Below, piece after piece: positions 6,833 through 42,941 of a stretch of DNA of 64,000 bases (position 1 is the stretch's first letter; each line of letters opens with the position of its first letter). The notes beneath the pieces were generated by a model. It was not told the DNA's origin. It ran no database searches and was given only the letters and a program-made list of their open reading frames with translations. A program made the position numbers and the translations under genes. Source of the stretch: Dyadobacter flavalbus (lineage in GTDB: Bacteria > Bacteroidota > Bacteroidia > Cytophagales > Spirosomataceae); the NCBI RefSeq assembly GCF_006149045.1, contig NZ_VBSN01000049.1, positions 496,001 to 560,000 of the forward strand. Direction: 5' to 3'.

Positions 6833-9127
6833 ATGATAACAGAAAAATACACTTATAAAAGAACGCCAAAAACCATTGCGCTTTCCGCTGATCTGGTCAT
6901 CGTCGGCGGCGGGTTGACGGGAACGTGCTCGGCAATTACGGCTGCCAGAGCCGGGATGAAAGTAATTCTGGTGCAGGACCGGCCGGTTTTAGGCGGAAAC
7001 TGTTCGAGCGAAGTCCGGTTATGGATTCTGGGAGCGACTTCGCACATGGGCAATAATAACCGCTGGGCACGCGAAAGCGGCGTGATCGATGAGATCATGC
7101 TGGAAAATATCTACCGCAATCCAGACGGAAATCCGCTGATTTTCGACACGGTTTTATTGGAAAAAATAGTAGAGGAAAAGAACATTACGCTTCTGCTGAA
7201 TACCAGCGTTTATGATCTGGACAAGAATCCTGCCGGCAGTCCGGACGAGGACATTATTACAGCGGTACATGCATTTTGCAGCCAGAACAGCACGCAATAC
7301 CGCTTGGCTGCTCCTCTTTTTTGTGATGCTTCGGGCGACGGCATTGTCGGGTTTCTTTCAGGTGCAGCCTTCCGGATGGGCGCAGAATCTATGGAAGAAT
7401 TTGGCGAGAAATTTGCTCCGGACAAATCTTATGGCGAGCTGCTGGGACATTCCATGTACTTCTACTCCAAAGACATCGGAAGACCCGTAAAGTTTGTGCC
7501 GCCTTCTTTTGCATTGCAGGACATCACTGAAATTCCGCGTTACAAAACCTTTAATCCAAAAGATTTCGGTTGCAGGCTCTGGTGGCTGGAATATGGCGGA
7601 AGGCTTGATACCGTGCATGATACGGAGAAAATCAAATGGGAATTGTGGAAAGTCGTTTACGGCGCCTGGAATTATATTAAAAATTCCGGCTCGTTTCCCG
7701 AAGCTGAAACTATGACGCTCGAATGGGTGGGCACCATTCCCGGCAAGCGGGAAAGCCGCCGTTTTGAAGGCGATTACATGCTGAAACAACAGGACATTGT
7801 AGAGCAAAGAACGTTTGATGATACGGTTGCATTCGGCGGCTGGAGCATAGACCTGCATCCGGCAGATGGCGTTTACAGCGACCAGTCGGGTTGCAACCAG
7901 TGGCATAGCAAAGGCGTTTACCCGATTCCTTACCGTTGTTATTACAGCAAAAACATCAGCAATCTCTTCATTGCAGGCCGCATTATCAGCGCTACGCACG
8001 TTGCCTTTGCATCCACCCGCGTAATGGCAACATCTGCTGCCGGCGGGCAGGCTGTTGGCATAGCGGCTGCTTTATGCAAAAAATACAACTGTTCACCTCG
8101 CGAGCTTGGCCAATTGTATTTGCAGGAACTTCAACTTGAACTCTGGCGGGCAGGCCAATACTTGCCACAAACTGAAATTACGGACCCCGAGAATCTGGTT
8201 AATCACGCTGTGCAGATCACGGCTTCGTCCACATTGCAACTGAAAGAACTTGCACCTTCTGATTTCTGGGCTCCGGTCAAAGATTCGGTGGCGCAAATGC
8301 TTCCTGTTACTCCGGGGAAAATGCCTGCTGTTTCTTTTTGGATCGAAGCAGACAAGGAAACAGATTTCGAGGTGGAACTGCGGAAAAGCAGCAAGTCGTT
8401 CAATCACACGCCGGATGTGATTCTGGAGAAAAAAAGCTTTCATCTGGAAAAAGGAAAACAGGAAATCACAACTGAATGGGACGCAGTTTTTGAGGAGCCC
8501 TGTTATGCCTTTGTCTGTTTCATGAAAAATGCAGATGTAAAAATCCAGTATTCAGAAATACGGATTTCGGGCGTTGTTTCACTTTTCAATGCGACCAATC
8601 CTGCCGTTTCGAATTACGGCAAACAGGAACCAACCGAGGATATTGGTGTGGATACATTTGAATTCTGGTGTCCGCAACGCCGTCCAGAAGGCCGCAATAT
8701 AGCTATGAAACTGAGTGAGCCATTAGACGCTTTTAATACAAGAAATCTTGTAAACAACTATCACCGGCCTGTTTCCCAGCCGAATGCATGGGCTGCTGAG
8801 CTAAGCGACCGTAATCCAATGCTAACCATCAGCTGGGCACAGCCTGAGCTTGTTTCCCGCATCGATCTGGTGTTTGATACCGATTATGATCATCCGATGG
8901 AAAACGTGATATACGTTCACCCGGAAACAGTAATGCCATTTTGTGTAACGAATGTGGAAGTTACCAACTGCAATGATCAGGTCATCGGCAGAATTATCGA
9001 CAATCACCTGAGCCGAAGAACAATCTTGCTGGAAAAACCGATTACAACCCAGCATTTAAAACTACGGCTTTCAGGATCAAATCCGAATGTTCCTATATCG
9101 TTGATGGAAGTGAGGTGTTATCATTAG
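6833..9127 (+). CDS. FAD-dependent oxidoreductase with C-terminal beta-sandwich-like extension
   Basis: The 764-residue protein has no signal peptide. Residues about 18-50 carry the dinucleotide-binding GGGLTG motif followed by LGGNCSSEVR, typical of the FAD_oxidored family. A second FAD contact (FIAGRIISATHVAFASTRVMATSAAGGQAVG region) lies near residues 380-415. The last 200 or so residues resemble a discoidin-like beta-sandwich found in several carbohydrate-active proteins. Members of this family often sit in glycan-use operons of Bacteroidota; a role in oxidising a sugar or sugar acid is inference. It is the last gene of the operon, 2 bp after the GH2 gene. Confidence 0.88.
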   Translation: MITEKYTYKRTPKTIALSADLVIVGGGLTGTCSAITAARAGMKVILVQDRPVLGGNCSSEVRLWILGATSHMGNNNRWARESGVIDEIMLENIYRNPDGNPLIFDTVLLEKIVEEKNITLLLNTSVYDLDKNPAGSPDEDIITAVHAFCSQNSTQYRLAAPLFCDASGDGIVGFLSGAAFRMGAESMEEFGEKFAPDKSYGELLGHSMYFYSKDIGRPVKFVPPSFALQDITEIPRYKTFNPKDFGCRLWWLEYGGRLDTVHDTEKIKWELWKVVYGAWNYIKNSGSFPEAETMTLEWVGTIPGKRESRRFEGDYMLKQQDIVEQRTFDDTVAFGGWSIDLHPADGVYSDQSGCNQWHSKGVYPIPYRCYYSKNISNLFIAGRIISATHVAFASTRVMATSAAGGQAVGIAAALCKKYNCSPRELGQLYLQELQLELWRAGQYLPQTEITDPENLVNHAVQITASSTLQLKELAPSDFWAPVKDSVAQMLPVTPGKMPAVSFWIEADKETDFEVELRKSSKSFNHTPDVILEKKSFHLEKGKQEITTEWDAVFEEPCYAFVCFMKNADVKIQYSEIRISGVVSLFNATNPAVSNYGKQEPTEDIGVDTFEFWCPQRRPEGRNIAMKLSEPLDAFNTRNLVNNYHRPVSQPNAWAAELSDRNPMLTISWAQPELVSRIDLVFDTDYDHPMENVIYVHPETVMPFCVTNVEVTNCNDQVIGRIIDNHLSRRTILLEKPITTQHLKLRLSGSNPNVPISLMEVRCYH

Positions 9128-20070: not shown

Positions 20071-20908
20071 TTACCTTATTTTAAATGCCATAATTTGATT
20101 TCAAAACAAATGATACACCATTAGGTTATGCAGTTAGAATGGACAATTTCAGTATGGAACAGAAAACTACAGCTGCCATGTCGTTTTGTTTTTGGAAACC
20201 TGTTACCAATGCACAATATTTAATTATAGTACCGCTCAGATCCAAACTCCTGCTAGTATACGTTGTACTTTGACTCAAAAAAACCGCGTGTATCTTACCT
20301 GTTAAAAGCAACTCCTAATTTATAAGTCACCAACTAAACCGCGGATGACAGGCGCTATGAAACGTTATACGTACATTCCTGAATCTGTGTTGCATCCACT
20401 TTACATTATACCTGAATTCATTTGGGCGTAAGTGATTACAGTATATTCAAAATACATATTTTTCATCCATGATCATCATGCAAATGAAAGCATGAATAAG
20501 CATAATATTTTCTACTCCTTTCAGATCAGTTGTATAAAATACCTTCAAACAAACACAATGCGGATCTTTATAGATAAACCTGTATTTTTTATTAAAGGCC
20601 TGAGCATTGCCATGCAGACTACCCCAAAGTGATGCGGCACCTGCATAGATTTAATGACTGGTTTAGGCCAGGATGTAAAATTTTATTCAACTGGATGAGA
20701 CCATATGAGTAATTATGCTGGCCACTCAATCTGTAAAGTAACAGCATGTAGTATTTGCCCATCCGGTCACCATATAAAATAGACATCCTGTTGTTGCTTG
20801 GTCCATGAAATTGATTTTAACCACAACATTCCCTTTATTAGTCACTTCTTTTCCCTACCCCATTGCCTTAGCAGCTAAACTTGCATACGTATTAAAAAAG
20901 GAAGTTTT
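20071..20908. other. 840-bp intergenic region, nothing recognised
   Basis: This AT-rich stretch separates the divergent CHU_C gene and the ECF sigma gene, so it must carry both promoters. I see no RNA gene, repeat or convincing small gene. Short open frames within it have no family resemblance. Confidence 0.6.
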
Positions 20909-21496
20909 ATGCATGGTTTTATGCTCAGGGTCATCTTTGATCCTAATAATGTCGACTCTGTTTTAGATGCCTGCATCCAGGGCAACCAATCAGCCCAGCG
21001 TGAGCTTTTCAAAAGATACTTTGGATACAGCAAAAGCATTTGCCAGCGCTACACCAACTGCTCGCAAGATGCAGATGAAGTCCTTAATGAAGGATTTTTG
21101 AAGGTTTTTAAAAATCTTGACAAATACGACCGTTTACAACCTTTTAAGGCCTGGCTTCGGACCATTCTCGTTAATACGGCCATTAGCCATTACCGAAAAA
21201 ACCGAAAATACCTGGATTACCAAACTGGTTATGATGATTTTATTGACTGCAGTATTGATGACGATGTAATTGGGGACATCGCTGCCCAGGAAATCATGGA
21301 AGTGATTCAGCAGCTTAAACCCATTTATAAAACAGTATTCTTATTGAATGTCGTGGATGGCTACTCTTTGAAAGAAATTGCTGTCTTATTGCAAATTAAT
21401 GCTGCCACGGTAAGATCGCATTTTTCACGGGCCCGATTGCAGCTGCAAGATTTAATAACCGTCCAATATCCGCACCTGCGGCAAAGATGTAAGTAA
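20909..21496 (+). CDS. ECF RNA polymerase sigma factor
   Basis: The 195-residue protein carries region 2 at about residues 22-85 (QRELFKRYFGYSKSICQRY, DADEVLNEGFLKVFKNLDKY) and region 4 at about residues 125-180 with helix-turn-helix YSLKEIAVLLQINAATVRSHFSRARLQL. The start at 20909 is preceded by AAAGGAAG, a plausible ribosome binding site. There is no adjacent anti-sigma gene; the next gene, 80 bp downstream on the same strand, is a LytS-type kinase. It may respond to, or act with, that two-component pair. Confidence 0.9.
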   Translation: MHGFMLRVIFDPNNVDSVLDACIQGNQSAQRELFKRYFGYSKSICQRYTNCSQDADEVLNEGFLKVFKNLDKYDRLQPFKAWLRTILVNTAISHYRKNRKYLDYQTGYDDFIDCSIDDDVIGDIAAQEIMEVIQQLKPIYKTVFLLNVVDGYSLKEIAVLLQINAATVRSHFSRARLQLQDLITVQYPHLRQRCK

Positions 21497-21576: not shown

Positions 21577-22782
21577 ATGGAATTCTTAAAAAAAATAGGC
21601 ACACCGCTGTTAATCGGGGCAGCTTTAGGAATTCTTCCTATCCTGTATTTTGTAAGTACAGGGGCGAGCTGGCAGCCGCTGGCCCCCCATGAACATTTGG
21701 TGCAGAATGCAATAGCTTATGTTTTCCTGATCCTGTTCACCTATTACAACCATACGGTTTTTGTTCCGCGCTGGTTTTTAAACAAGCAATACCGGCGCTA
21801 CATTCTTATTACCATATGTTGTATTTTGGGGGCAGTGTACCTGCCCTACCGTATTGAGCAATGGGTATTTTTCCAGTCGCCGCAGGAAAATACAATCGGT
21901 GCCTGGGCACGGCAAATTTTTGTAGCTGAAATGATGTTTGGTGATTCAAACGGCAAACCTCTGAATATGCGCGAAAATAAAAGCAGGATGCCCGGCGGGC
22001 CGCCTGACTTTTTCAGTGATTATCCTTCAAAGAAGCCTTTCCGGCCACAAGGCCCGCCCGGCGGGGGTCGACCCCGTGGAGAACCGCCAACTATGTCCTG
22101 GATTTTACCGTCAAAACTGGCCATCTTTTTTCTCATAGGCAGTGTAAGTTCGCTGATATCGATTCTTATCCAGGCAACCAACCGGCTTCACAAGGTTGAA
22201 AATGACCAGCTGCAGGCCGAGCTTCGGCAACTGAAAGCCCAGATCCAGCCCCATTTTCTATTTAATACCCTCAACAGTATTTATGCTTTGGCAATCCGGA
22301 ATGATGAGCGTACGGCAGATACAATCGTGCAGCTTTCCGAATTTCTCCGGTACATTATCCGTGATGCCAACCGTGAGCACGTGGCACTGGTGACGGAATT
22401 AAACTATATCCATAACTACATCGGGCTGCAAAAAGCCAGGTTAAGGGATGCTGTAAAGGTGAACTACCGGCTGGATGGGGATACAAACGGGCTTCAGATC
22501 GCCCCATTGATCCTTTTTTCTTTTATTGAAAATGCTTTTAAATATGGTGTCAATCCTGAAGAAGATTCTCCGATTGACATTCATATTAAGATGGATGAAA
22601 GCGGCTTGCAATTGTTAGTAGCAAACAACAAAGTACAGGTAAATGAGATGGAAGCCTCCACCGGCATTGGCCTGGCGAACACAAAAGAACGGCTTAGACT
22701 GATCTATCCGGCTGCGCATGAGCTGGCTATTGATGATACAGGCAGACAGTTCCGCGTCACCTTAAATCTCACACTGACATGA
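21577..22782 (+). CDS. LytS-family sensor histidine kinase
   Basis: The 401-residue protein has four likely membrane helices (about residues 8-25, 42-62, 72-90 and 180-200). A Pro/Gly-rich loop of about 60 residues (PGGPPDFFSDYPSKKPF region) precedes the last one. The cytoplasmic part has the His_kinase box QIQPHFLFNTLNS, with the phosphorylated histidine at residue 226, and an ATPase domain with IENAFKYG and STGIGLANTKERL. There is no periplasmic sensor domain, so it probably senses within the membrane. The stop overlaps the next gene's ATG (ATGA), and that gene is its response regulator. Confidence 0.93.
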   Translation: MEFLKKIGTPLLIGAALGILPILYFVSTGASWQPLAPHEHLVQNAIAYVFLILFTYYNHTVFVPRWFLNKQYRRYILITICCILGAVYLPYRIEQWVFFQSPQENTIGAWARQIFVAEMMFGDSNGKPLNMRENKSRMPGGPPDFFSDYPSKKPFRPQGPPGGGRPRGEPPTMSWILPSKLAIFFLIGSVSSLISILIQATNRLHKVENDQLQAELRQLKAQIQPHFLFNTLNSIYALAIRNDERTADTIVQLSEFLRYIIRDANREHVALVTELNYIHNYIGLQKARLRDAVKVNYRLDGDTNGLQIAPLILFSFIENAFKYGVNPEEDSPIDIHIKMDESGLQLLVANNKVQVNEMEASTGIGLANTKERLRLIYPAAHELAIDDTGRQFRVTLNLTLT

Positions 22783-23483
22783 TAAAAGCCATTGCGCTGG
22801 ATGATGAGCGGCCTGCACTGGACGTCATCGATGCTTTTTGCAGCAGATTGGAAACCATTACTTCCCTAAAAACCTTTACCCGCACCGGCGAAGCCCGTTT
22901 GTACATGGAAAGCAACCCGGTTGACCTGATTTTCCTGGATATCAACATGCCCAAAGAATCCGGCTTGCAATTTGCAAAAACCGTTGGCCGGCAAACCGCA
23001 GTTATTTTCACGACCGCGTACAGCGAATTTGCCGTTGAAAGTTACGAAGTGCAGGCAGTGGATTACCTTCTTAAACCTTTTACATTTGAGCGTTTTACGG
23101 CGGCTGTCCAAAGGGCACAACAGCGTTTACAGGCATTGCGGCAGACGGCTGGCACAGCCACTGACGGTGAACCGGCTCATGTTTTTTTCCGGGTGGATTA
23201 TGGCCTGGTAAAAGTCGGGCTTAATGATATTCTTTTTATTGAAGGCCTGGATAATTATCTCAAAATCCATATCCGTAACACGCGTCCCCTGGTGGTGCGT
23301 ATGACCATGAAAGCGATGCTGGATAAATTGCCTCACACAAACTTTTTGCGCGTGCACCGTTCCTACATTGTTGCATTGGACAAAATCCAGGGTGTCCGCA
23401 GCAAGATCATCGCCATTGGAGATGAAGAGATCCCAATCGGCAACAGCTACGAAAACGATTTTACTACAAGATTTCTTAACTAA
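22779..23483 (+). CDS. LytTR-family response regulator
   Basis: The 234-residue protein has a receiver domain (residues 1-120, phosphoacceptor Asp54 in IFLDINMP, Lys in YLLKPF) and a C-terminal LytTR DNA-binding domain (about residues 140-234: YGLVKVGLNDILFIEGLDNYLKIH, LPHTNFLRVHRSYIVALDKI). LytTR proteins bind paired direct repeats about 21 bp apart. It overlaps the kinase gene by 4 bp. The neighbouring DUF3500-HupE-receptor genes begin 155 bp downstream on the same strand and are candidate targets by position only. Confidence 0.93.
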   Translation: MIKAIALDDERPALDVIDAFCSRLETITSLKTFTRTGEARLYMESNPVDLIFLDINMPKESGLQFAKTVGRQTAVIFTTAYSEFAVESYEVQAVDYLLKPFTFERFTAAVQRAQQRLQALRQTAGTATDGEPAHVFFRVDYGLVKVGLNDILFIEGLDNYLKIHIRNTRPLVVRMTMKAMLDKLPHTNFLRVHRSYIVALDKIQGVRSKIIAIGDEEIPIGNSYENDFTTRFLN

Positions 23484-23638
23484 TACCTGCCCCAGATTTT
23501 GCTTCATTGATAACAATGCAATCTTCTTGGCCACCACATTCGCCTGATTAGCCACAACTTTCTCACACTTTTGTCCTCACCTGCGAAATTTGAATCATAG
23601 ATAAACAGCGAACTATTATTCACTTATCAATCAGACAG

Positions 23639-24751
23639 ATGAAAGCAATTCTAAAATCAGGATGGGGCCTGATCTTTTTTACCATTTTTACGTTGGCCTG
23701 CAGCTCAGATGATACCGGCGTTACGCCGGAAACCGGCAGCACTTCGTCTTCAATCACAGCGGCATTGCTTACAACAACCAGCGGTAACACCGCTTGCAGT
23801 ACTTCCACTGGCGTGGCCAGAGCCGTTTGCCTTGCCGAAGCCTTCAAGGCAACGCTGAGCAGCAGCCAGGTTGCCACCATGCAGCTGACTTACAGCCAAA
23901 CCAATGCTAAAAAATGGTCCAATCTTCCGGCAGGCTTGTCGAGCCGGATCGGGATTAAGCTGGGATCACTCAATGACTCACAATTGGCTGCATTTCGGGA
24001 CCTGATGGTGGCTTTGCTGGATGTAAGCACAAGCAATGAAGGCTATGACGAAATGCTGGGCAACCTGGTAGCGGACGATTATCTGAACACCATCGGTGGC
24101 GGTTCCGATTACGGGGCGGGTGAATATTATCTGGCATTTCTGGGGACGCCAAGCGCAACAGGGCTCTGGGAAATCCTTTTTACAGGCCATCACTATACAC
24201 AACCCTATACTTTCAACAGCGGCAAGCTGACTGGCGTGACACCTGCTTTCCGTGGCGTTGAACCGGCAAGCGCGGTAACAGCAAATGGTAATACCTACCA
24301 GCCTTTCGAGCAGGAAAGAGCCGTATTTGCTACGATGCTGGGCGGACTAAGTACTGCTGAGCAGGCAACAGCAAAACTTTCCAGCACCTTTTCGGATATA
24401 TTGCTGGGTCCGGGCAAGGACGGATCTTTCCCTTCAACCAAATCAGGGTTACAGGTCGGCTCCCTGACTGCGGCCAAACAGGAACTCGTTCTGAATGCTA
24501 TCAGGCTTTATGTCAATGACCTGGATCAGGCTTCTGCTGCATCGATACTGGCTACCTACACCAACGAACTGGCCGACACCTACATTTCCTACTCGGGAAC
24601 AACAACCGTTGCATCACAAAATGACTACGTACGTATCGACGGCCCCAGTGTTTGGATCGAATTCTCCTATCAGGGAGGCGTTATTGTACGCAATACCCCG
24701 CACCCACATTCTGTCTGGCGTGACCGGAGCAGGGATTACGGAGGGAACTAA
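23639..24751 (+). CDS. DUF3500 lipoprotein, copy 1
   Basis: This 370-residue lipoprotein (lipobox LAC, cysteine about residue 21) belongs to the uncharacterised DUF3500 family. Family marks visible are WSNLPAGL, YDEMLGNLVADDYL, TGLWEILFTGHHYTQPYTFN and the C-terminal block WIEFSYQGGVIVRNTPHPHSVWRD...DYGG. The repeated histidines in GHHY and PHPHSVWRD could bind a metal or haem-like ligand; that is inference. A near-duplicate follows at 24863, then a HupE/UreJ-like membrane protein and a TonB-dependent receptor, all on one strand. The arrangement suggests a periplasmic or surface binding component of an uptake system. Confidence 0.85.
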   Translation: MKAILKSGWGLIFFTIFTLACSSDDTGVTPETGSTSSSITAALLTTTSGNTACSTSTGVARAVCLAEAFKATLSSSQVATMQLTYSQTNAKKWSNLPAGLSSRIGIKLGSLNDSQLAAFRDLMVALLDVSTSNEGYDEMLGNLVADDYLNTIGGGSDYGAGEYYLAFLGTPSATGLWEILFTGHHYTQPYTFNSGKLTGVTPAFRGVEPASAVTANGNTYQPFEQERAVFATMLGGLSTAEQATAKLSSTFSDILLGPGKDGSFPSTKSGLQVGSLTAAKQELVLNAIRLYVNDLDQASAASILATYTNELADTYISYSGTTTVASQNDYVRIDGPSVWIEFSYQGGVIVRNTPHPHSVWRDRSRDYGGN

Positions 24752-24789
24752 CCTTTTGTTCTAAAGTCAATGGCTGCTTTGTAGCATTT

Positions 24790-24812
24790 GCACCGGAACG
24801 CTTGTCCGGTGC
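24790..24812. terminator. GC hairpin between the two DUF3500 genes
   Basis: An 8-bp perfect stem (GCACCGGA / TCCGGTGC) with a 7-nt loop lies 38 bp after the first stop. There is no U-run, so it may be a transcript-stabilising or attenuating hairpin and not a full terminator. Confidence 0.5.
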
Positions 24813-24862
24813 AAGAAGTAAAATTTAGTATCACTTAACAAACCTGTAAATATCAAACAACT

Positions 24863-26086
24863 ATGAATAGACTATTTTCAATTTTCACACTTCTGCTCGG
24901 CTTCTTTCTGGCGACGATGATTGCCTGCGACGACCATGTAACGCCAGATCCGGATCCGGAGGTGCCAGGTGACTCGACAGGAACAGGCATGCCCGGAGAT
25001 TCGGCCGGAAGCCCGGGTGGTCCCGGCGGAAATGGTGGCCCGGGCGGCAGTGGTTCGGGTGCATCCGTGGATACTTCTACGGCTATAACCGCTGCCATGT
25101 ATACGATGACGATGACCAATACGAGCTGTGCAGGTGCTACTGGCCTGGCAAAAGTCGTTTGTCTCACACAGGCTTTTGAAGCAACACTGAGTGACAGCCT
25201 TTTATCTGCTGTACAACTTCCGTACACCCTGGCCAATGCGCAAAAGTGGTCTAATTTACCTGCCGGATTGTCTGCACGTTATGGTATCAGCCTGGCCTCG
25301 CTTAATGGAACCCAGCGCACCGCTTTTAAAGATTTGATGCTGGCGGTACTTGCCTTGAACGGAACCGATGAAGGCTATGATGAGATGATCGGGAGTATGG
25401 TTGCCGACAATTACCTGGCAGTAAACGGAGGTGGGACTACTTACGGCGCAGGTAACTTTTATGTATCAATCCTGGGCACACCAAGCACAACAGGCCTTTG
25501 GGAGCTACTTTTTACCGGGCATCACTACACGCAGCCGTATACGTTCAATGGTTCTGCCGGCAGTGGCTATACGCCGGCATTCCGGGCAATTGAGCCTACA
25601 TACACGGTGACTGAAAATGGCAAGACTTACCAACCCATGGAGCAGGAGCGCCTGGCATTTGCAGCCTTGCTCACCAGTTTGAGCAGCAGCGAACAGACGA
25701 CGGCCAAGCTGAGTTCTACATTTGGGGACGTAGTACTGGGTCCGGGGCAGGACTGGAAATTCCCGGCCACAAAGGTTGGCTTAAAAGTGGGCAGCCTGAC
25801 TGCCGATAAGCAGACCCTTGTCCTGAATGCCATTAAGCTTTATGTCAATGACCTGGATGCGGCTTCAGCAGCGGCAGTTTTGGCCAAATATACCAGCGAG
25901 CTGGCCGATACCTATTTATCTTACGCGGGAAACACGAGCGTGACTGCTGCCAATGATTATATTCGCATTGACGGGCCAAACGTATGGATTGAATTCTCCT
26001 ATCAGGGAGGGGTCATTATCAAAAATATGCCACATCCGCACTCAGTTTGGCGTGACCATACCACCGACTATGGCGGAACTAAATAA
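24863..26086 (+). CDS. DUF3500 lipoprotein, copy 2 (with Gly/Pro-rich linker)
   Basis: The 407-residue lipoprotein (lipobox IAC) is a clear paralogue of the preceding gene: it shares LPAGLSARYGI, GLWELLFTGHHYTQPYTFN and the C-terminal PHPHSVWRD...DYGG block almost residue for residue. It differs by a Gly/Pro/Ser-rich linker of about 40 residues after the lipid anchor (GGPGGNGGPGGSGSG), which would hold the domain away from the membrane. Its end lies 22 bp before the HupE-like ATG chosen here. Tandem duplication followed by divergence of the tether is the likely origin. Confidence 0.85.
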   Translation: MNRLFSIFTLLLGFFLATMIACDDHVTPDPDPEVPGDSTGTGMPGDSAGSPGGPGGNGGPGGSGSGASVDTSTAITAAMYTMTMTNTSCAGATGLAKVVCLTQAFEATLSDSLLSAVQLPYTLANAQKWSNLPAGLSARYGISLASLNGTQRTAFKDLMLAVLALNGTDEGYDEMIGSMVADNYLAVNGGGTTYGAGNFYVSILGTPSTTGLWELLFTGHHYTQPYTFNGSAGSGYTPAFRAIEPTYTVTENGKTYQPMEQERLAFAALLTSLSSSEQTTAKLSSTFGDVVLGPGQDWKFPATKVGLKVGSLTADKQTLVLNAIKLYVNDLDAASAAAVLAKYTSELADTYLSYAGNTSVTAANDYIRIDGPNVWIEFSYQGGVIIKNMPHPHSVWRDHTTDYGGTK

Positions 26087-26108
26087 ATCTATTTTGAAAA
26101 ACCCGTTA

Positions 26109-27416
26109 ATGATCATCAGTCACGCAAGAAAGTGGCTGATGACCCTGGTAATTTCTGCTACATGCTGCTTGAATGCCTATAACACGGTGGCGCATCCGAT
26201 GCCAAACTCGGTTGTATTATTAACCGTACATTCCGATTACATCAGTGCCGAATTGCAGATACCACTTAGTGAATTGCAAGCTGCCATCGGTTTGGCAGTC
26301 AATGATTCTTCCGCACAGCTGATCGGCAGGCATGCTCCCCAGCTCCGAGCTTATTTAGTTCAACATATCAGGCCGAAAACAAGAGATGGAAAGCTTTGGC
26401 GCGTAACTGTCGGAGCATTAAAAGTGCATGAAACGCAAAATGCCATTCATGGTGTTTACCGCGAGCTTACTGCGCAGCTGGACCTTATCCCACCAGCTGA
26501 TGCAGATGTCAGAAAATTCATTTTTGACTACGATGCAGTACTTCACCAGGTCGTAACGCATAAGATATTAGTATCAGTAAGCCAGGATTGGGCTGCCGGC
26601 AAACTTGCAGAAGAATCTCCCAATCAGGTAGGGGTAATCGAGCTCGATATTGTCAACAACAGGATATTACCCCTGCTAGTTAACCTTGAACCCGGAAATA
26701 GCTGGAAAGGCTTTCTATCCATGGTCAGGCTTGGCATACAGCATATTGCCGAAGGTACAGACCACTTGCTTTTTTTATTGGTGCTGCTACTTCCCGCACC
26801 GCTGCTATACACACGCAGGCGCTGGACTGGTTTTGGAGGTACCCGGTACAGCCTGTCACGTCTTTTGTGGATTGTAACAGCTTTTACAGCCGGGCATTCT
26901 ATAACATTATTGCTTGGCGCATTTGGCTGGGTCAGACTGCCGGGGCAACCTGTTGAAATACTGATTGCCTTGTCTATTCTGATTTCTGCCTTACATGCCA
27001 TGCGGCCATTTTTTCCAGGCAAGGAAACCTGGATCGCTGCCGGTTTTGGGCTGATCCATGGGCTGGCTTTTGCAAACACACTGGAAAATCTATCCCTTGA
27101 TGCCGGCAGCATGGCACTCAGCATTTTGGGGTTCAATGCAGGTATCGAGCTGATGCAGCTGCTGATTATTTTGGTTACCATTCCCTGGCTGATTTTATTA
27201 AGCCGCACACCTGTTTATCGATCTGTCCGGCTTACAGGTGCCGTATTGGCTGCGGTGGCTGCCATTGCCTGGACGGCCGAACGTGTGACCGGAAATGCAA
27301 ATGCCGGGGGCGCAGTAATCGAACGTATCGCGGATTATGCCCCTTTTATACTTTTGGCTCTGGCTGTGTCGGCGGTTTATTTTACGTTAAAAACCAGGCA
27401 AGCAAATAAAGCCTGA
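26109..27416 (+). CDS. HupE/UreJ-like membrane protein (HupE_UreJ_2 type)
   Basis: I choose the ATG at 26109, which begins a signal peptide (WLMTLVISATCCLNAYNTVAHP); in-frame starts at 26070 and 25953 overlap the previous gene. The protein of about 435 residues has a periplasmic N-terminal domain of about 200 residues. About seven membrane helices follow, with motifs GIQHIAEGTDHLLFLLVLLLP, TAFTAGHSITLLL and AAGFGLIHGLAFA. The intramembrane histidines in these motifs are family hallmarks; related HupE/UreJ proteins transport nickel or cobalt. Transport direction and metal are not evident here. It lies 7 bp before the TonB-dependent receptor, so they are coexpressed. Confidence 0.85.
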   Translation: MIISHARKWLMTLVISATCCLNAYNTVAHPMPNSVVLLTVHSDYISAELQIPLSELQAAIGLAVNDSSAQLIGRHAPQLRAYLVQHIRPKTRDGKLWRVTVGALKVHETQNAIHGVYRELTAQLDLIPPADADVRKFIFDYDAVLHQVVTHKILVSVSQDWAAGKLAEESPNQVGVIELDIVNNRILPLLVNLEPGNSWKGFLSMVRLGIQHIAEGTDHLLFLLVLLLPAPLLYTRRRWTGFGGTRYSLSRLLWIVTAFTAGHSITLLLGAFGWVRLPGQPVEILIALSILISALHAMRPFFPGKETWIAAGFGLIHGLAFANTLENLSLDAGSMALSILGFNAGIELMQLLIILVTIPWLILLSRTPVYRSVRLTGAVLAAVAAIAWTAERVTGNANAGGAVIERIADYAPFILLALAVSAVYFTLKTRQANKA

Positions 27417-27423
27417 CTTCCAT

Positions 27424-29679
27424 ATGAAATCGTTATTACTCTCATTTTTGCTTTTGATCATCCGCATAGCTGCTTATGCGCACCTGGGTTCGCTGGAAGG
27501 GCGCGTGACAGACGCAGCAAGCGGCCTTCCGCTTCGCGGGGTAAGCGTGCAGCTGGCAGGAACAGGTAAGGCAACCTTGACCAATGAACTGGGTCAATAT
27601 CGGTTTAGTGAGCTGGTGGCATCGGCTTACAAGCTGGAATTCTCATACATTGGCTATGCGCCCCACATTCAGGAGGTGACAGTAACTGATGAATTGACTA
27701 CAAAAGTCCAAACTAAAATGACCGTAGCGCCTGTTATGCTGAGCACCGTTACAGTATCGGGTTTGAAAGCACATGATCAGCAGTTGATCAGCAGCCTGGA
27801 TATCCGACTGCGCCCTGTTACCAATTCTCAGGAAATACTCCGGATTGTGCCTGGCCTTTTTATTGGGCAGCATGCAGGTGGTGGGAAAGCCGAGCAAATT
27901 TTTCTGCGCGGGTTCGATATTGACCATGGGACTGACATTCGTCTAAGCTTGGATGGCATGCCGGTCAACATGGTCTCGCATGCACACGGGCAAGGTTATG
28001 CTGACCTGCATTTTGTGATTCCGGAGCTTGTCGAAACGGTTAATTTCAAAAAAGGCCCCTACACCACCGATATAGGCAATTTTACGACTGCGGGTTGGGC
28101 CAATCTGAAAACAAAAACAACTTTGGATAACAGCTTTATAAAACTCGAAGGAGGCCAGTTCGGGACATTTAGGGCGGTGGGCGGACTAGATTTGTTGAGG
28201 CGAAAAGACAAAAATCAATCGGCTTACCTGGCTTCGGAATATTCCTATTCGGATTCCTATTTTGACAATCCTCAGAACTTTAAGCGGTTCAACCTGCAAG
28301 GAAAATACCACGGCCATTTATCTGCAAATACCAATCTGACTGTAACTGGCTCAACATTCTGGAGTAAATGGAACCACTCCGGGCAAATCCCGAACCGGGC
28401 AGTTGCATCCGGGCTCACCGGCTTTTTCGGATCGGTGGACCCTACGGAGGGTGGCCAGACCAGCCGGACCAATTTCAATGCTGAAACAGTAACCGTCACG
28501 TCAAGCGGCTATACCTTAAAAAATCAGCTCTTTTACAGCAATTACCATTTTGAGCTTTATTCCAATTTTACATTTTTCCTCAAAGATTCTATCAATGGCG
28601 ATCAGATCCGCCAAAAAGAAATGCGCGACCTTTTTGGTTATCAGGGCAGCATTGCACGCACCAATTACGTCGGGAATGTAGCCTTGATCTCTACCGCCGG
28701 CTTGCAGTACCGCCAGGACCTAACTCGAGGAACTGAACTTTCGCATACCAAAAACCGCACAGAAACACTTGAACGCCAGCAGTACGGCAAAATCAATGAG
28801 CTTAATGCAAGTGCTTATCTGGACGAAGTGATCCAATTTTCAGATCGCTTTTCTGCCAATGCCGGCATACGGTTTGATTATTTCCGAAACCAGTATGAAG
28901 ACTTGCTGCTAACCCCGGCAGCCAAAAGGCGAAGTACATCGGCTATCATTTCGCCGAAATTAAACCTTTACTATACCGCCAATCCCGGCCTGCAATTGTA
29001 TCTGAACTCGGGCAAGAGTTTTCACTCCAATGATACCAGGGTTGTAGTGGCAGATAATGGCCGCAAAACCCTTCCCCCGGCTTACGGGTTTGATGCCGGT
29101 ACGATTTTCAAGCCATTTCCGAAGCTTCTGGTCAACGCGGCTGCCTGGTATTTGTGGCTTGCGCAGGAGTTTGTGTATGTGGGCGACGAAGGTGTTGTAG
29201 AGCCGAGTGGCAAAACAAGGCGCTACGGCCTGGACCTTTCCATACGCTACGAGCTGACCCGGCATTTGTATGCGGACCTGGATCTGAATGCTGCCAAACC
29301 GCGGACAATTGGTGTTGAGGCGGGCCAGGACTATCTGCCCCTTGCCCCTACCCTGACTTCTGTCGGCGGATTATCGCTTCGCAATGCCGGTGCATGGAGT
29401 GGATCACTGCGCTACCGTTATATGGGTACAAGGCCTGCCAATGAAGACAACAGCATCGTTGCCAAAGGTTATTTTGTAAATGATTTACAGCTCAATTACA
29501 CCAGGCCCAGCTATGCGCTGGGACTTTCCGTACAAAACCTTTTTAACACACGCTGGAAGGAAACACAGTTTGCAACCGAAAGCCGGCTGCGAGGCGAGAC
29601 TGCATCCGTTGAAGAAATCCATTTCACTCCCGGCACGCCATTGGCTGCCAAGCTTAGCTTTACCTATTTTCTTAAATGA
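27424..29679 (+). CDS. TonB-dependent receptor with carboxypeptidase-like N-terminal domain
   Basis: The 751-residue outer membrane receptor has a signal peptide and a CarboxypepD_reg-like domain (about residues 22-105: GSLEGRVTDAASGLPLRGVSV). A plug domain (about residues 115-225) and a 22-strand-type beta-barrel ending in SFTYFLK follow. The plug contains FDIDHGTDI and MVSHAHGQGYADLHF, with His186 and His188 close together, which may mark a metal-complex ligand. It is not SusC-like and has no SusD partner. Its neighbours are a HupE-like permease and two DUF3500 lipoproteins, so import of a metal chelate is the favoured inference. Confidence 0.93.
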   Translation: MKSLLLSFLLLIIRIAAYAHLGSLEGRVTDAASGLPLRGVSVQLAGTGKATLTNELGQYRFSELVASAYKLEFSYIGYAPHIQEVTVTDELTTKVQTKMTVAPVMLSTVTVSGLKAHDQQLISSLDIRLRPVTNSQEILRIVPGLFIGQHAGGGKAEQIFLRGFDIDHGTDIRLSLDGMPVNMVSHAHGQGYADLHFVIPELVETVNFKKGPYTTDIGNFTTAGWANLKTKTTLDNSFIKLEGGQFGTFRAVGGLDLLRRKDKNQSAYLASEYSYSDSYFDNPQNFKRFNLQGKYHGHLSANTNLTVTGSTFWSKWNHSGQIPNRAVASGLTGFFGSVDPTEGGQTSRTNFNAETVTVTSSGYTLKNQLFYSNYHFELYSNFTFFLKDSINGDQIRQKEMRDLFGYQGSIARTNYVGNVALISTAGLQYRQDLTRGTELSHTKNRTETLERQQYGKINELNASAYLDEVIQFSDRFSANAGIRFDYFRNQYEDLLLTPAAKRRSTSAIISPKLNLYYTANPGLQLYLNSGKSFHSNDTRVVVADNGRKTLPPAYGFDAGTIFKPFPKLLVNAAAWYLWLAQEFVYVGDEGVVEPSGKTRRYGLDLSIRYELTRHLYADLDLNAAKPRTIGVEAGQDYLPLAPTLTSVGGLSLRNAGAWSGSLRYRYMGTRPANEDNSIVAKGYFVNDLQLNYTRPSYALGLSVQNLFNTRWKETQFATESRLRGETASVEEIHFTPGTPLAAKLSFTYFLK

Positions 29680-30010: not shown

Positions 30011-31273
30011 ATGACTGCTATCTTGTCCAATGCCGATCCCTTTCGTCTGGAAGCTGCCATCGCTCAAAATCACAGCGACCTGTTTTATTTGGATGCCCTT
30101 GCGAAAGGAGGAATGGTGCGGCAGGAAACCGGTTGCAGCTGGACCTACATACCCGAAGAACAGTGTGGGGACATCCTTTTTCCTAAGCAGCTTAATGGCA
30201 CTGCTGCGCTGGATGCAATGTTCGACTTCTATCGGACGCACCCGGTGCGCGACCTGTGCTGCTGGTCCCTGAATCCTCCTGAGACAACCGATCTGGATGT
30301 TCTGCTCCTGGCAAGGGGATTTCAGCCAGGATGGAAGCCATGCTGGATGGCGCTTGAGATTTCCGCAATTCGCCCCAGCTTTGTTGCGCCAGCAGATCTT
30401 GTGATAAAACCAGATAATGAAATGTCGCTGAGCGCCATTGCCGGTCTTCCTTATGCTGGAAACAATGATCTTGGAAACAAGAACCTACCGCAGCTAAATC
30501 CCAAACAGGTGCAGCGTTTCGTAGCCCTGAAACAGGGACGGGTCGTGGCGCAGACCTTGATGCTATTTGGTGGCGGTGTCGCAGGTATCTACAATGTCGG
30601 TGTAGTACCCGAGTACAGTAGGCAAGGCATAGGTAAAGCCATTGTTACAGCAGCTTGCCTACATGCCTTTCAGGAAGGCTATCATTATGTGACGCTGAAC
30701 GCCAACTCCAATGGTCGACCATTATATGAGCAGTTGGGTTTTAAATGGATCAATGATGGCCTTACCTGGTCCATCACTGATGACCGACTGAATACCCGTT
30801 CCCCCGGCCCCGCACAGGTGGCCTTGGCAGAGGCCATAGGCAAAGGCGATTTAACCATGCTTGACAGTCTTCCGGCTACTGACTTGAATGTGCCGCTTTG
30901 CAATGGCATGCGACCATTAGAGCTGGCTGCACATTTCAGGCAAACGATCTGTGCTGAATGGCTGATCGCGCACGGAGCTTTGTGCAGCGTTCTCGATGCT
31001 TGGGATATGGGATGGAGAGATCGCAGTGCCGCCCTGCTTGCCGACGATCCCGAAGCGGTAAATCAATTGTATGGAGTCTATCAGTATACCCTGCTGCATG
31101 TCGCTGCAGAAAGAAATGATAGTGTGCTGGCGCAATTAGTCTTGTCCTTTGATCCTAACCTGCAGCTTCGGGACATGGTATACCAAGGCACCGCATTGGA
31201 ATGGGCTAGGCACCTGCAACGAAAGGAGATAGAAGCATTAATCGGCATCCATATGTCAGGGGTAAGCGACTGA
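30011..31273 (+). CDS. GNAT N-acetyltransferase fused to C-terminal ankyrin repeats
   Basis: The 420-residue soluble protein joins two modules. Residues about 135-260 form a GNAT domain: VALKQGRVVAQTLMLF, the acetyl-CoA loop VVPEYSRQGIGKAIV (R/Q-x-x-G-x-G/A type) and LNANSNGRPLYEQLGF. The preceding 130 residues look like a degenerate N-terminal GNAT half. Residues about 270-415 contain ankyrin-type helices: NVPLCNGMRPLELAAHFRQTICAEWLIAHGA, YTLLHVAAERNDSVLAQLVLSF and GTALEWARHLQRKEIEALI. The ankyrin part probably presents a partner protein to the enzyme. No operon partner is visible. The substrate is unknown. Confidence 0.85.
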   Translation: MTAILSNADPFRLEAAIAQNHSDLFYLDALAKGGMVRQETGCSWTYIPEEQCGDILFPKQLNGTAALDAMFDFYRTHPVRDLCCWSLNPPETTDLDVLLLARGFQPGWKPCWMALEISAIRPSFVAPADLVIKPDNEMSLSAIAGLPYAGNNDLGNKNLPQLNPKQVQRFVALKQGRVVAQTLMLFGGGVAGIYNVGVVPEYSRQGIGKAIVTAACLHAFQEGYHYVTLNANSNGRPLYEQLGFKWINDGLTWSITDDRLNTRSPGPAQVALAEAIGKGDLTMLDSLPATDLNVPLCNGMRPLELAAHFRQTICAEWLIAHGALCSVLDAWDMGWRDRSAALLADDPEAVNQLYGVYQYTLLHVAAERNDSVLAQLVLSFDPNLQLRDMVYQGTALEWARHLQRKEIEALIGIHMSGVSD

Positions 31274-41111: not shown

Positions 41112-42941
41112 ATGGCAACCTTGAAACGAACCTGGAAATACTGGATATCCCGCTCGTTATTGCTGATTCTGTTGATCGCTGCCGGCTGGCTTATCAATCT
41201 GATCTGGTTTCGCCCGTTTAATATTCGGCATTTCTACGACCGCGTTTTTATTACCGGCATGCTGCGTAGTCCGGAAACAATCACCTATCTGGGTCTGCCT
41301 GTCCTGTATGACTGGACCAAAGACAAATGGGATGATGCAACGGATGCTCAGCAATGGCGCAGTTTTGAACAAATGAAAGACGATTTCCAGATGCTGCAGC
41401 ACTATGATTTTGAGAGTCAGTCGCCGGAGAATAAGTTAAACACCAAAATTCTAAGCTGGTATTTGGAAAGTAACACAGACGGCAAAGTATTCTTCTACTA
41501 TAATTACCCGCTCAACCAGATGGATGGAGCCCAGCTTGAAGTTGTCGATCTGCTACTGAACAAGCACAAGCTACGGAACCGAAGCGACATGGATGCCTAT
41601 ATTACCCGACTTAAAGGCATTGCCACCAAGTTTGATCAGGTATTGCAAGGGCTGATCATCAGAGAGCATAAAGGCATTGTCCCACCCAGGATTATTGTGC
41701 AGCGAGTGCTGGAACAGATGAAAGCATTTATAAATGGTGAAATTAGCAAGAACGTACTTTACACCAATTTCAATCAAAAGATAGCACGCATCAGGGATGT
41801 ATCAGCGGAAGAAAAAAAGATCTATTCCAACCGGGTTGCCAAGGTTATCCGGACATCCGTTTTTGGCGCTTATCAAAAACTAATCCGCTACAACCAGTTC
41901 TTATACCAGCGTACTTCTCCGGATGAGGGCGTCTGGAAGCATCCTTATGGTGATGACTATTATAGTCATCAGCTAAGAATTCATACCACGACCGATCTAA
42001 GCCCGGAGCAAATACATCAGATTGGTTTACGCGAGGTTCGCCGGATTACGCAGGAAATGAGGGCCATTTTGAAAAGTCAGGGTTATGCCGATACCAGCCA
42101 TACGATTGGAACGGTTCTTCAGCGGCTGGCTAAAGAACGTCGCTTTTTGTATCCAGATACACCCGCTGGCAAAGGGTTGATTCTGGCTGAATATAAACGC
42201 ATTATTGACGACGCCAGTAAGCGGGTGGATGTCGCCTTTACCCTTCGCCCGAAAGCCTCCATAACGGTTGAGCCAATGCCCGTGTTTCAGCAAAATACAG
42301 GCGCTCTCGGTAAGTATGATCTGCCTGCCCTGGATGGCTCGAAAGGAGGAGTTTTTGTGGCGAATCTGCGAACGGCATCCGAACACCCGAAATTTTCCAT
42401 GAAGACGCTTGCCTATCACGAAGCTATCCCCGGCCATCATTTCCAATTGGGTATACAGACCGAACTAAAAGGCTTGCCCATCTTCCGTACTGTCATTCCC
42501 TTTAACGCGTATATCGAAGGATGGGCTTTGTACAGCGAGCAACTGGCTTATGAAATGGGCTTTTACCAGCATGATCCGTTCGGAAACCTAGGCCGTTTGC
42601 GTGATGAGCTATTTCGAGCCGTCCGACTCGTGGTCGATACAGGAATTCATTATAAACGCTGGTCACGAGAGCAGGCCATTACCTATATGGTTGCCAATAC
42701 GGGCTGGGCTACCAGTGCCATAACAACTGAAGTCGAGCGGTATATAGTCTGGCCGGGTCAGGCCTGCTCGTACAAGATTGGAATGATGAAGATTCTGGAA
42801 CTACGTGAAAAGGCCAGACAAGCACTTGGTTCCCGGTTCGATTTAAAGCAGTTTCATCAAGCCGTGTTGGCCAATGGCTCTGTGCCACTGCCCATTTTAG
42901 AAGAAATTGTCAATACTTACATCCAGCAGACAAAACCTTGA
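41112..42941 (+). CDS. DUF885 family protein (putative metallopeptidase), membrane-anchored
   Basis: The 609-residue protein has an N-terminal membrane helix (about residues 12-32: SLLLILLIAAGWLINLIWF) and a large DUF885 domain. The zinc-type motif HEAIPGHH spans residues 436-443, followed by the family block EGWALYSEQLAYEMGFY about 45 residues later. This matches gluzincin-like peptidases in which the downstream Glu is the third ligand. It probably cleaves peptides at the outer face of the inner membrane. The neighbouring S9 peptidase on the same strand, 50 bp downstream, suggests a joint role in peptide use. Confidence 0.9.
   Translation: MATLKRTWKYWISRSLLLILLIAAGWLINLIWFRPFNIRHFYDRVFITGMLRSPETITYLGLPVLYDWTKDKWDDATDAQQWRSFEQMKDDFQMLQHYDFESQSPENKLNTKILSWYLESNTDGKVFFYYNYPLNQMDGAQLEVVDLLLNKHKLRNRSDMDAYITRLKGIATKFDQVLQGLIIREHKGIVPPRIIVQRVLEQMKAFINGEISKNVLYTNFNQKIARIRDVSAEEKKIYSNRVAKVIRTSVFGAYQKLIRYNQFLYQRTSPDEGVWKHPYGDDYYSHQLRIHTTTDLSPEQIHQIGLREVRRITQEMRAILKSQGYADTSHTIGTVLQRLAKERRFLYPDTPAGKGLILAEYKRIIDDASKRVDVAFTLRPKASITVEPMPVFQQNTGALGKYDLPALDGSKGGVFVANLRTASEHPKFSMKTLAYHEAIPGHHFQLGIQTELKGLPIFRTVIPFNAYIEGWALYSEQLAYEMGFYQHDPFGNLGRLRDELFRAVRLVVDTGIHYKRWSREQAITYMVANTGWATSAITTEVERYIVWPGQACSYKIGMMKILELREKARQALGSRFDLKQFHQAVLANGSVPLPILEEIVNTYIQQTKP

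Follow-up and report, generated by a model that had tools for sequence, protein, structure and literature searches.

Genes at the DUF3500 locus

The 64,000-nucleotide stretch analysed here (hereafter the window) comes from the 6.48 Mb genome of Dyadobacter flavalbus (GCF_006149045.1, contig NZ_VBSN01000049.1) and holds, at positions 23639-29679 of the plus strand, four open reading frames (ORFs) identified by Pfam as two DUF3500 lipoproteins, a HupE_UreJ_2 permease and a TonB-dependent receptor. Comparison across genomes revealed that DUF3500 proteins of this clade are mostly accompanied by an exported domain whose apparent mature form begins with a histidine (His1), usually fused to the permease. 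The original prediction had described four adjacent genes on one strand, and the ORFs and Pfam matches agree with it, as do the 7 bp between the permease stop codon and the receptor ATG, the GHHY (residues 183 and 219) and PHPHSVWRD (residues 354 and 390) blocks of the DUF3500 proteins and the HAHGQ block at receptor residues 186-190.

The DUF3500 lipoproteins a (23639-24751, 370 aa) and b (24863-26086, 407 aa) match PF12006 almost end to end (profile positions 4-296/297) with 226 and 214 bits (cut-off 27.2), are 63% identical to each other in the seed alignment A1, and have lipobox cysteines, judged by eye, at residues 21 and 22. The permease ORF (PF13795, 151.3 bits, cut-off 24.5) as listed from 25953 overlaps DUF3500 b; its likelier start is 26070 or 26109, giving a gene at 26070-27416 in which the codon of the predicted mature N-terminal His (TVA↓HPMPNS, the arrow marking the putative cleavage site) lies at 26193-26195. 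The receptor (27424-29679), an optional part of the system, has the TonB barrel, plug and CarbopepD_reg_2 domains of Pfam, with the HAHGQ block in the plug.

Upstream on the same strand are genes encoding an extracytoplasmic function (ECF)-type sigma-70 factor (20909-21496; Sigma70_r2/r4_2), a LytS-type histidine kinase (21577-22782; His_kinase, 90.7 bits) and a LytTR response regulator (22779-23483; LytTR 64.7 and Response_reg 62.5 bits) which overlaps the kinase gene by 4 bp, and these three also belong to the unit. The same order of sigma factor, kinase, regulator, two DUF3500 genes, HupE permease and receptor is present in Dyadobacter sp. CY356, which also has the closest named match to the window DUF3500 (86% identity, among the best 80 of 202 loci). 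Genes of hydrogenase or urease clusters were not detected among the nine genes scanned at 18.3-31.3 kb, the part of the genome searched for them.

DUF3500 and its His1 partner

An intact His1 permease gene was found within 2 kb of DUF3500 and in the same orientation in 60/80 loci, these being the best 80 of 202 confirmed in named genomes, selected solely on their DUF3500 sequence and lacking phylogenetic independence, with a seed alignment (A1) made up of permease-linked DUF3500 sequences only; tblastn detected permease DNA in four further loci (L038, as fragments, L050, L092 and L099). Paired loci span the Bacteroidota, Actinomycetota, Ignavibacteria/Kapabacteria and Acidobacteria, and the pair is also present on plasmids of Deinococcus, Paenibacillus and Agrobacterium. 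In the reverse direction, all 30 His1 permeases of the window family that were inspected (window included, taken from 49 matches in 48/150 genomes) have a same-strand DUF3500 gene alongside, while none of 40 random 19-kb control windows, drawn from related Bacteroidota and not genus-matched, contains DUF3500 or the permease. The neighbourhood of DUF3500 and HupE_UreJ_2 noted in the original prediction thus recurs when searched for in either direction.

In a sample of 247 genomes of the phylum, DUF3500 was detected in 20 and HupE_UreJ_2 in 70, and by listed coordinates the two are side by side only in the window and in one other genome (G222), whose DUF3500 proteins together with those of the window (three in all) are the sample's members of the window clade. 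None of the 22 DUF3500 proteins outside the clade in this sample is encoded beside HupE and none has a His1 domain within the about 1.5 kb that their flanks reach; the tree separates these 22 from all 99 clade members with support 1.0. Over 64 pairs, DUF3500 distances correlate better with those of the adjacent anglerase-type (Ang) exported domain (r 0.59) than with those of the membrane part (r 0.43), and 0/2000 permutations reached either value.

In six loci a separate small His1 protein, starting A↓H, directly follows DUF3500 without a permease (Sulfitobacter L030, Falsirhodobacter L032, Tritonibacter L104, Aestuariibaculum L063, Algoriphagus L070 and Shinella L277). These proteins carry a YDAVxHxVxxH-like block, in which Tyr replaces the first His in the Aestuariibaculum protein and which begins FDAI in that of Algoriphagus; both of the latter have a C-terminal hydrophobic stretch. 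Small proteins with His at or near the start similarly follow more distant DUF3500 genes of Deinococcus (L279) and Qipengyuania (L278). As these loci have His1 on its own next to DUF3500, it is this domain, not the transporter, that is the conserved partner; the permease can be dispensed with, His1 less readily.

The His directly after the apparent signal peptide of the permease (NTVA↓HPMPNS) is invariant in 65/65 aligned permeases, including that of the window, the putative cleavage site having been judged by eye. This His is the strongest evidence for a metal at the locus and had been overlooked in the original prediction. The permease model (mean predicted local distance difference test score, pLDDT, 91.4) has as its best solved fold match the anglerase Ang-1 (9GCE; Z 12.1, E 2.2e-5, root mean square deviation 4.3, 143 residues aligned), while phmmer and profile searches of PDB sequences retrieved no relevant relative of the permease; the link to anglerases therefore rests on fold, as no sequence search retrieves 9GCE. 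The next fold matches of the exported domain are the zinc-binding proteins ZrgA (8F1B) and PA4063 (7AMX), with Z 8-9 and an identity of only 10-12%. We know of no fusion of ZrgA or PA4063 to a His1 permease.

HupE/UreJ-2 permeases with an N-terminal His domain were named anglerases, Ang-1 and Ang-2, in the available part of a 2025 paper, with dissociation constants for Cu2+ of 74 nM and 62 nM, respectively (PMC12537917). Anglerases share a His after the signal peptide, a beta-sandwich domain and a C-terminal PF13795 permease (PMC12537917; 9GCE). The window permease has the PF13795 domain, the conserved His1 and, according to its model, the Ang beta-sandwich fold, which make it a predicted anglerase-type permease, and by analogy Cu2+ or Ni2+ may be bound through its His1. 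The available part of the paper places Ang-1 particularly in Pseudomonadota and Ang-2 in Actinomycetota only, whereas the DUF3500-linked loci are mostly from Bacteroidota; the neighbours it gives for anglerases are DUF4198, indigoidine A-like, PfkB, metallophosphatase and DUF916 proteins, whereas the partner here is DUF3500, which is not named in that text (PMC12537917). The window-type domain further differs from the published Ang-1 and Ang-2 in its conserved H58 and H118 and in the loci which have no permease. H58 is present in 71/71 and H118 in 66/71 DUF3500-linked His1 domains, as against 2/6 and 0/6 in six His1 permeases not linked to DUF3500, and the two residues thus appear to mark the DUF3500-linked form of the domain.

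Regarding the wider neighbourhood, a Hymenobacter plasmid (L027, 8565-19402) carries, in order, genes for CCP_MauG, DUF3500, HupE, a helix-turn-helix regulator, a receptor and two more DUF3500 proteins. The neighbours in five actinobacterial loci that were scanned had no shared theme. His1 HupE permeases without DUF3500 were observed in a Roseovarius genome and three Bacteroidota genomes (L218, 4404-5648; L219, 4696-5910; L220, 4843-6030; L221, 5177-6382) inside clusters with non-ribosomal peptide synthetase (NRPS), adenylation and acyl-CoA dehydrogenase genes, the gene names in the three Bacteroidota clusters being read from sequence only; these clusters possibly encode a metallophore together with its importer. 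In Croceicoccus and Pseudoalteromonas, His1 HupE permeases (L216, 5920-7038; L217, 5884-6984) adjoin DUF4331 proteins and an ECF sigma/anti-sigma pair, and judging by this arrangement DUF4331 would be a second exported partner family of His1 HupE permeases. No paper joining DUF3500 to HupE was found in the literature covered, from which most subscription journals were absent.

DUF3500 fold, gene context and control

The model of DUF3500 a (mean pLDDT 94.1) matches 9x86, titled the dehydratase ApmL of amipurimycin biosynthesis and the only solved DUF3500 relative found, with Z 21.5 over 248 aligned residues at 25% identity; further fold matches, with Z of 3.7 or less, were taken as noise. A profile match to ApmL (E 7e-18) points the same way, and the GHH and HxHSVWR motifs are common to both, although ApmL (Amc20) belongs to an antibiotic pathway; no relevant paper on ApmL/Amc20 was among the matches listed for the open literature. 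From these models, DUF3500 looks like an enzyme-type fold, and by its likeness to ApmL the exported clade may have dehydratase activity. Conservation of H184, H185, E226, E341, H355, H357 and R361 extends to 81-86 of 86 clade members, this set comprising all those outside 13 partner-less loci and including a few with no partner or a tblastn-only one (e.g., L029), and in 21-22 of the 22 unlinked proteins. Kept in both groups, these residues serve the whole DUF3500 family, whereas the clade is set apart by E138, E208, D294, D329, D334 and W339, which almost all of its members share and few other DUF3500 proteins have. Almost nothing on bacterial DUF3500 was found in the open literature. The fungal DUF3500 protein AN10530 has been proposed, in the available part of a review, to be a dioxygenase for 1,2,3,5-tetrahydroxybenzene, a gallate-derived phenol (PMC12388069); it has the same Pfam domain, and its proposed substrate fits the tannase and gallate neighbours described below.

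Tannase-like or gallate-type genes were found in 7/60 paired loci and 0/40 control windows (Fisher p 0.024). A subtype B tannase is present in L042 (474 bits, cut-off 300), with similar proteins in L040, L049 and L069, and extradiol-dioxygenase-like and gallate-type genes are present in L040, L046, L048, L049 and L067, the dioxygenases of L040 and L049 scoring just under the catechol 2,3-dioxygenase cut-off. L067 has a 4-carboxy-4-hydroxy-2-oxoadipate aldolase and a 4-oxalomesaconate tautomerase above NCBIfam cut-offs, and we take the aldolase, tautomerase and dioxygenase steps of these loci to be those of gallate breakdown. Outside the paired set, the DUF3500-His1 genes of Shinella adjoin a divergent gene annotated as tannase B, and in Sulfitobacter a fumarylacetoacetase gene lies immediately 5' of the pair. 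The gallate-type cluster of L067 also contains a DoxX protein (7339-7755) weakly similar to an HvfX-type maturation protein of copper-related ribosomally synthesized and post-translationally modified peptides (32.7 bits, cut-off 80).

A receptor is present in only 10/60 paired loci and is a lineage-specific addition rather than the core component that the original prediction made of it. The HAHGQ plug block and HAHGQGYADLHF are each present in 13/13 receptors compared (window included). The window receptor has a predicted mature N-terminal His (YA↓HLGS), and among these 13 related receptors (the window and 12 others) nine have His as the first residue past the putative cleavage site (A↓HLG or A↓HQG), while that of L041 could not be judged; this His is perhaps a second His1 metal site. 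All eight NCBIfam matches of the receptor are below cut-off and include no SusC-type model, so that SusC-SusD glycan uptake was rejected, in line with the earlier description of the receptor as not SusC-like; assignment as a heme, B12 or pyrroloquinoline quinone transporter was likewise rejected, as the matches were below cut-off.

LytTR operators consist of two direct repeats spaced by roughly two turns of the helix and located close to the gene of the regulator, and such repeats were found at DUF3500 loci. In the window, the operator (23527-23557, plus strand) consists of TTGGCCACC / TTAGCCACAA with a period of 21 bp, 82 bp 5' of DUF3500 a, and agrees with the consensus at 15/16 positions. 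Direct repeats resembling TTyrCCmCAA are present in 14/18 regulator-DUF3500 intergenic regions, and the period of the repeat pairs is exactly 21 bp in 19/20; shuffles keeping base composition gave on average 0.0 loci. The LytTR regulator would be expected to bind this operator, and the LytS/LytTR pair, considered in the original prediction as a possible sensor, is likely the control system of the module. A weaker direct repeat (20817-20847, plus strand, 14/16) lies 62 bp upstream of the ECF sigma gene and has a counterpart in Dyadobacter sp. CY356 (L037:6153, 14/16); in the whole window three sites scoring at least 14 were observed where 0.5 would be expected, the remaining one being at 42364 on the opposite strand. 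Control of the permease by a riboswitch was rejected, as no Rfam match was found in the 64 kb at gathering thresholds.

Across 14 genomes chosen for carrying the permease, 53 operator sites were detected compared with 26 for a reversed-pattern control, so that chance may account for a good part of those remote from the operon. A His1 permease gene is no more than 6 kb away from 18/53 sites (8/14 genomes), and one more site is beside another DUF3500 gene; of 11 site stretches outside the system, six are inside ORFs and look like chance, and five are intergenic. One of the latter, in genome G376, is flanked by SCO1 and a DUF4198-MbnP-MauG operon. In the same genome an operator-like repeat (L256, 2486-2516) was observed some 30 bp upstream of a further LytS-type kinase gene, far from the operon. 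Separately, the ORF at 30011-31273 of the window fuses a GNAT acetyltransferase domain with ankyrin-like repeats.

Metal, mechanism and alternatives

Taken together, the locus may be viewed, tentatively and at somewhat short of an even chance, as a LytS/LytTR-controlled envelope module for the capture of a transition metal, copper being the likeliest. The substrate of the exported DUF3500 proteins would be an organic ligand, perhaps a phenolic one, on which they act at the cell surface or in the periplasm, the dedicated partner domain would bind the metal via its N-terminal His, fusion to the HupE permease in most loci would allow the metal to be carried inward, and in the window lineage the added TonB receptor would provide passage through the outer membrane for the metal or its chelate. 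Uptake is placed first since in most of its forms the module terminates in a permease of importer type, with a TonB receptor added in some lineages, and processing of the ligand while the metal is passed on is suggested by the dedicated His1 partner together with the enzyme-like DUF3500.

Regarding the metal, HupE/UreJ relatives are reported to move nickel or cobalt (PMC4284471). The metal theme of the original prediction is upheld, with His1 as its strongest evidence, and copper is weakly favoured over nickel or cobalt by analogy because related anglerases bind copper (PMC12537917, available part) and because one genome has an extra operator at the SCO1/MbnP-type site. SCO1 is a copper chaperone. 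MbnP/MbnH are linked to methanobactin operons, and the preference for copper is only weak, as the SCO1/MbnP-type site occurs in one genome, as of 2013 the available text reported no data tying close MbnP homologues to copper (PMC3621798), and DUF4198 binds nickel best (PMC12537917).

Apart from the last two points, several observations weigh against this interpretation. An operator precedes DUF4198 in 2/9 genomes, the other seven having no such site; in the second of the two, G394, the site is 14/16 and the examined DUF4198 flank contains neither MbnP nor MauG, and the MbnP locus of the window genome itself has no operator. A second operator marking a conserved copper regulon is accordingly weakened as a candidate, with MbnP and MauG in one genome only. 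Among the 80 loci, 13 have no His1 partner even with a profile search of them (L039, L044, L055, L062, L066, L068, L075, L077, L085, L089, L098, L101 and L106), some of these contigs ending close by, as in L089. Furthermore, 53/60 paired loci have no phenolic genes, and the window genome contains no subtype B tannase above cut-off.

The main rival reading reverses the direction of flow: the His1 domain would be a dedicated metallochaperone or redox partner loading DUF3500, which would be secreted and would use the metal as an enzyme on polyhydroxylated aromatics, with HupE serving only for anchoring or for recycling the metal. This is somewhat unlikely in our estimation, and it draws on the six loci in which His1 domains stand beside DUF3500 without a permease, on the conservation of HH184-185, H355, H357, E226 and E341 in linked and unlinked proteins, on the dioxygenase activity proposed for AN10530 (PMC12388069), and on the tannase B of Shinella and the fumarylacetoacetase of Sulfitobacter. 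However, the sole solved relative is titled a dehydratase with no metal named in its listing, and these His residues are also conserved in the 22 DUF3500 proteins that do not belong to the clade, which lack a HupE neighbour and a His1 domain in their flanks of about 1.5 kb, so the core of the family does not need a His1 partner.

A bolder form of the metal-capture module, which we regard as unlikely, is that DUF3500 and its His1 partner mine copper from plant polyphenols, the chelator being altered or cleaved and the freed metal taken by a free, membrane-anchored or importer-fused His1 domain; if true, such a two-part secreted system would be previously unrecognised.

The original prediction itself, in which DUF3500 proteins are non-catalytic binders of a nickel or cobalt chelate handed on from the TonB receptor towards HupE, now seems improbable. 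The transport of these metals by HupE/UreJ relatives (PMC4284471), the HAHGQ-bearing receptor in the operon and the operator before the nickel-preferring DUF4198 in two genomes (PMC12537917) are consistent with it, but most paired loci have no receptor and the pair is found in Gram-positive lineages, e.g., Rhodococcus and Paenibacillus. Gram-positive lineages are not known to have an outer membrane receptor of this type. The enzyme-type fold and the family-wide conservation of the His residues mean that a metal-binding lipoprotein fed by a receptor is not the first choice for DUF3500, and the window has no riboswitch at Rfam gathering thresholds. A defensive role, removing copper or redox-active phenolics harmful to the envelope, is very unlikely despite the aromatic-catabolism genes near some loci and the resistance-nodulation-division (RND) efflux genes adjoining the pair in Agrobacterium, since HupE is regarded as an importer (PMC4284471), copper import would not protect, and an RND-type neighbour cluster, so named from its sequence, is present in only 3/64 paired loci.

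To our knowledge, copper entry into bacteria is poorly understood. With its pairing repeated in very different bacteria, the locus looks like a module for handling metal, and the name anglerase itself dates only from 2025 (PMC12537917). A fixed anglerase partner found in several phyla, with an operator conserved in many Bacteroidota loci, offers a testable handle on these domains, and ties bacterial DUF3500 strongly to a function. Should copper indeed be mined from polyphenols, tannin breakdown would be linked to trace-metal supply.

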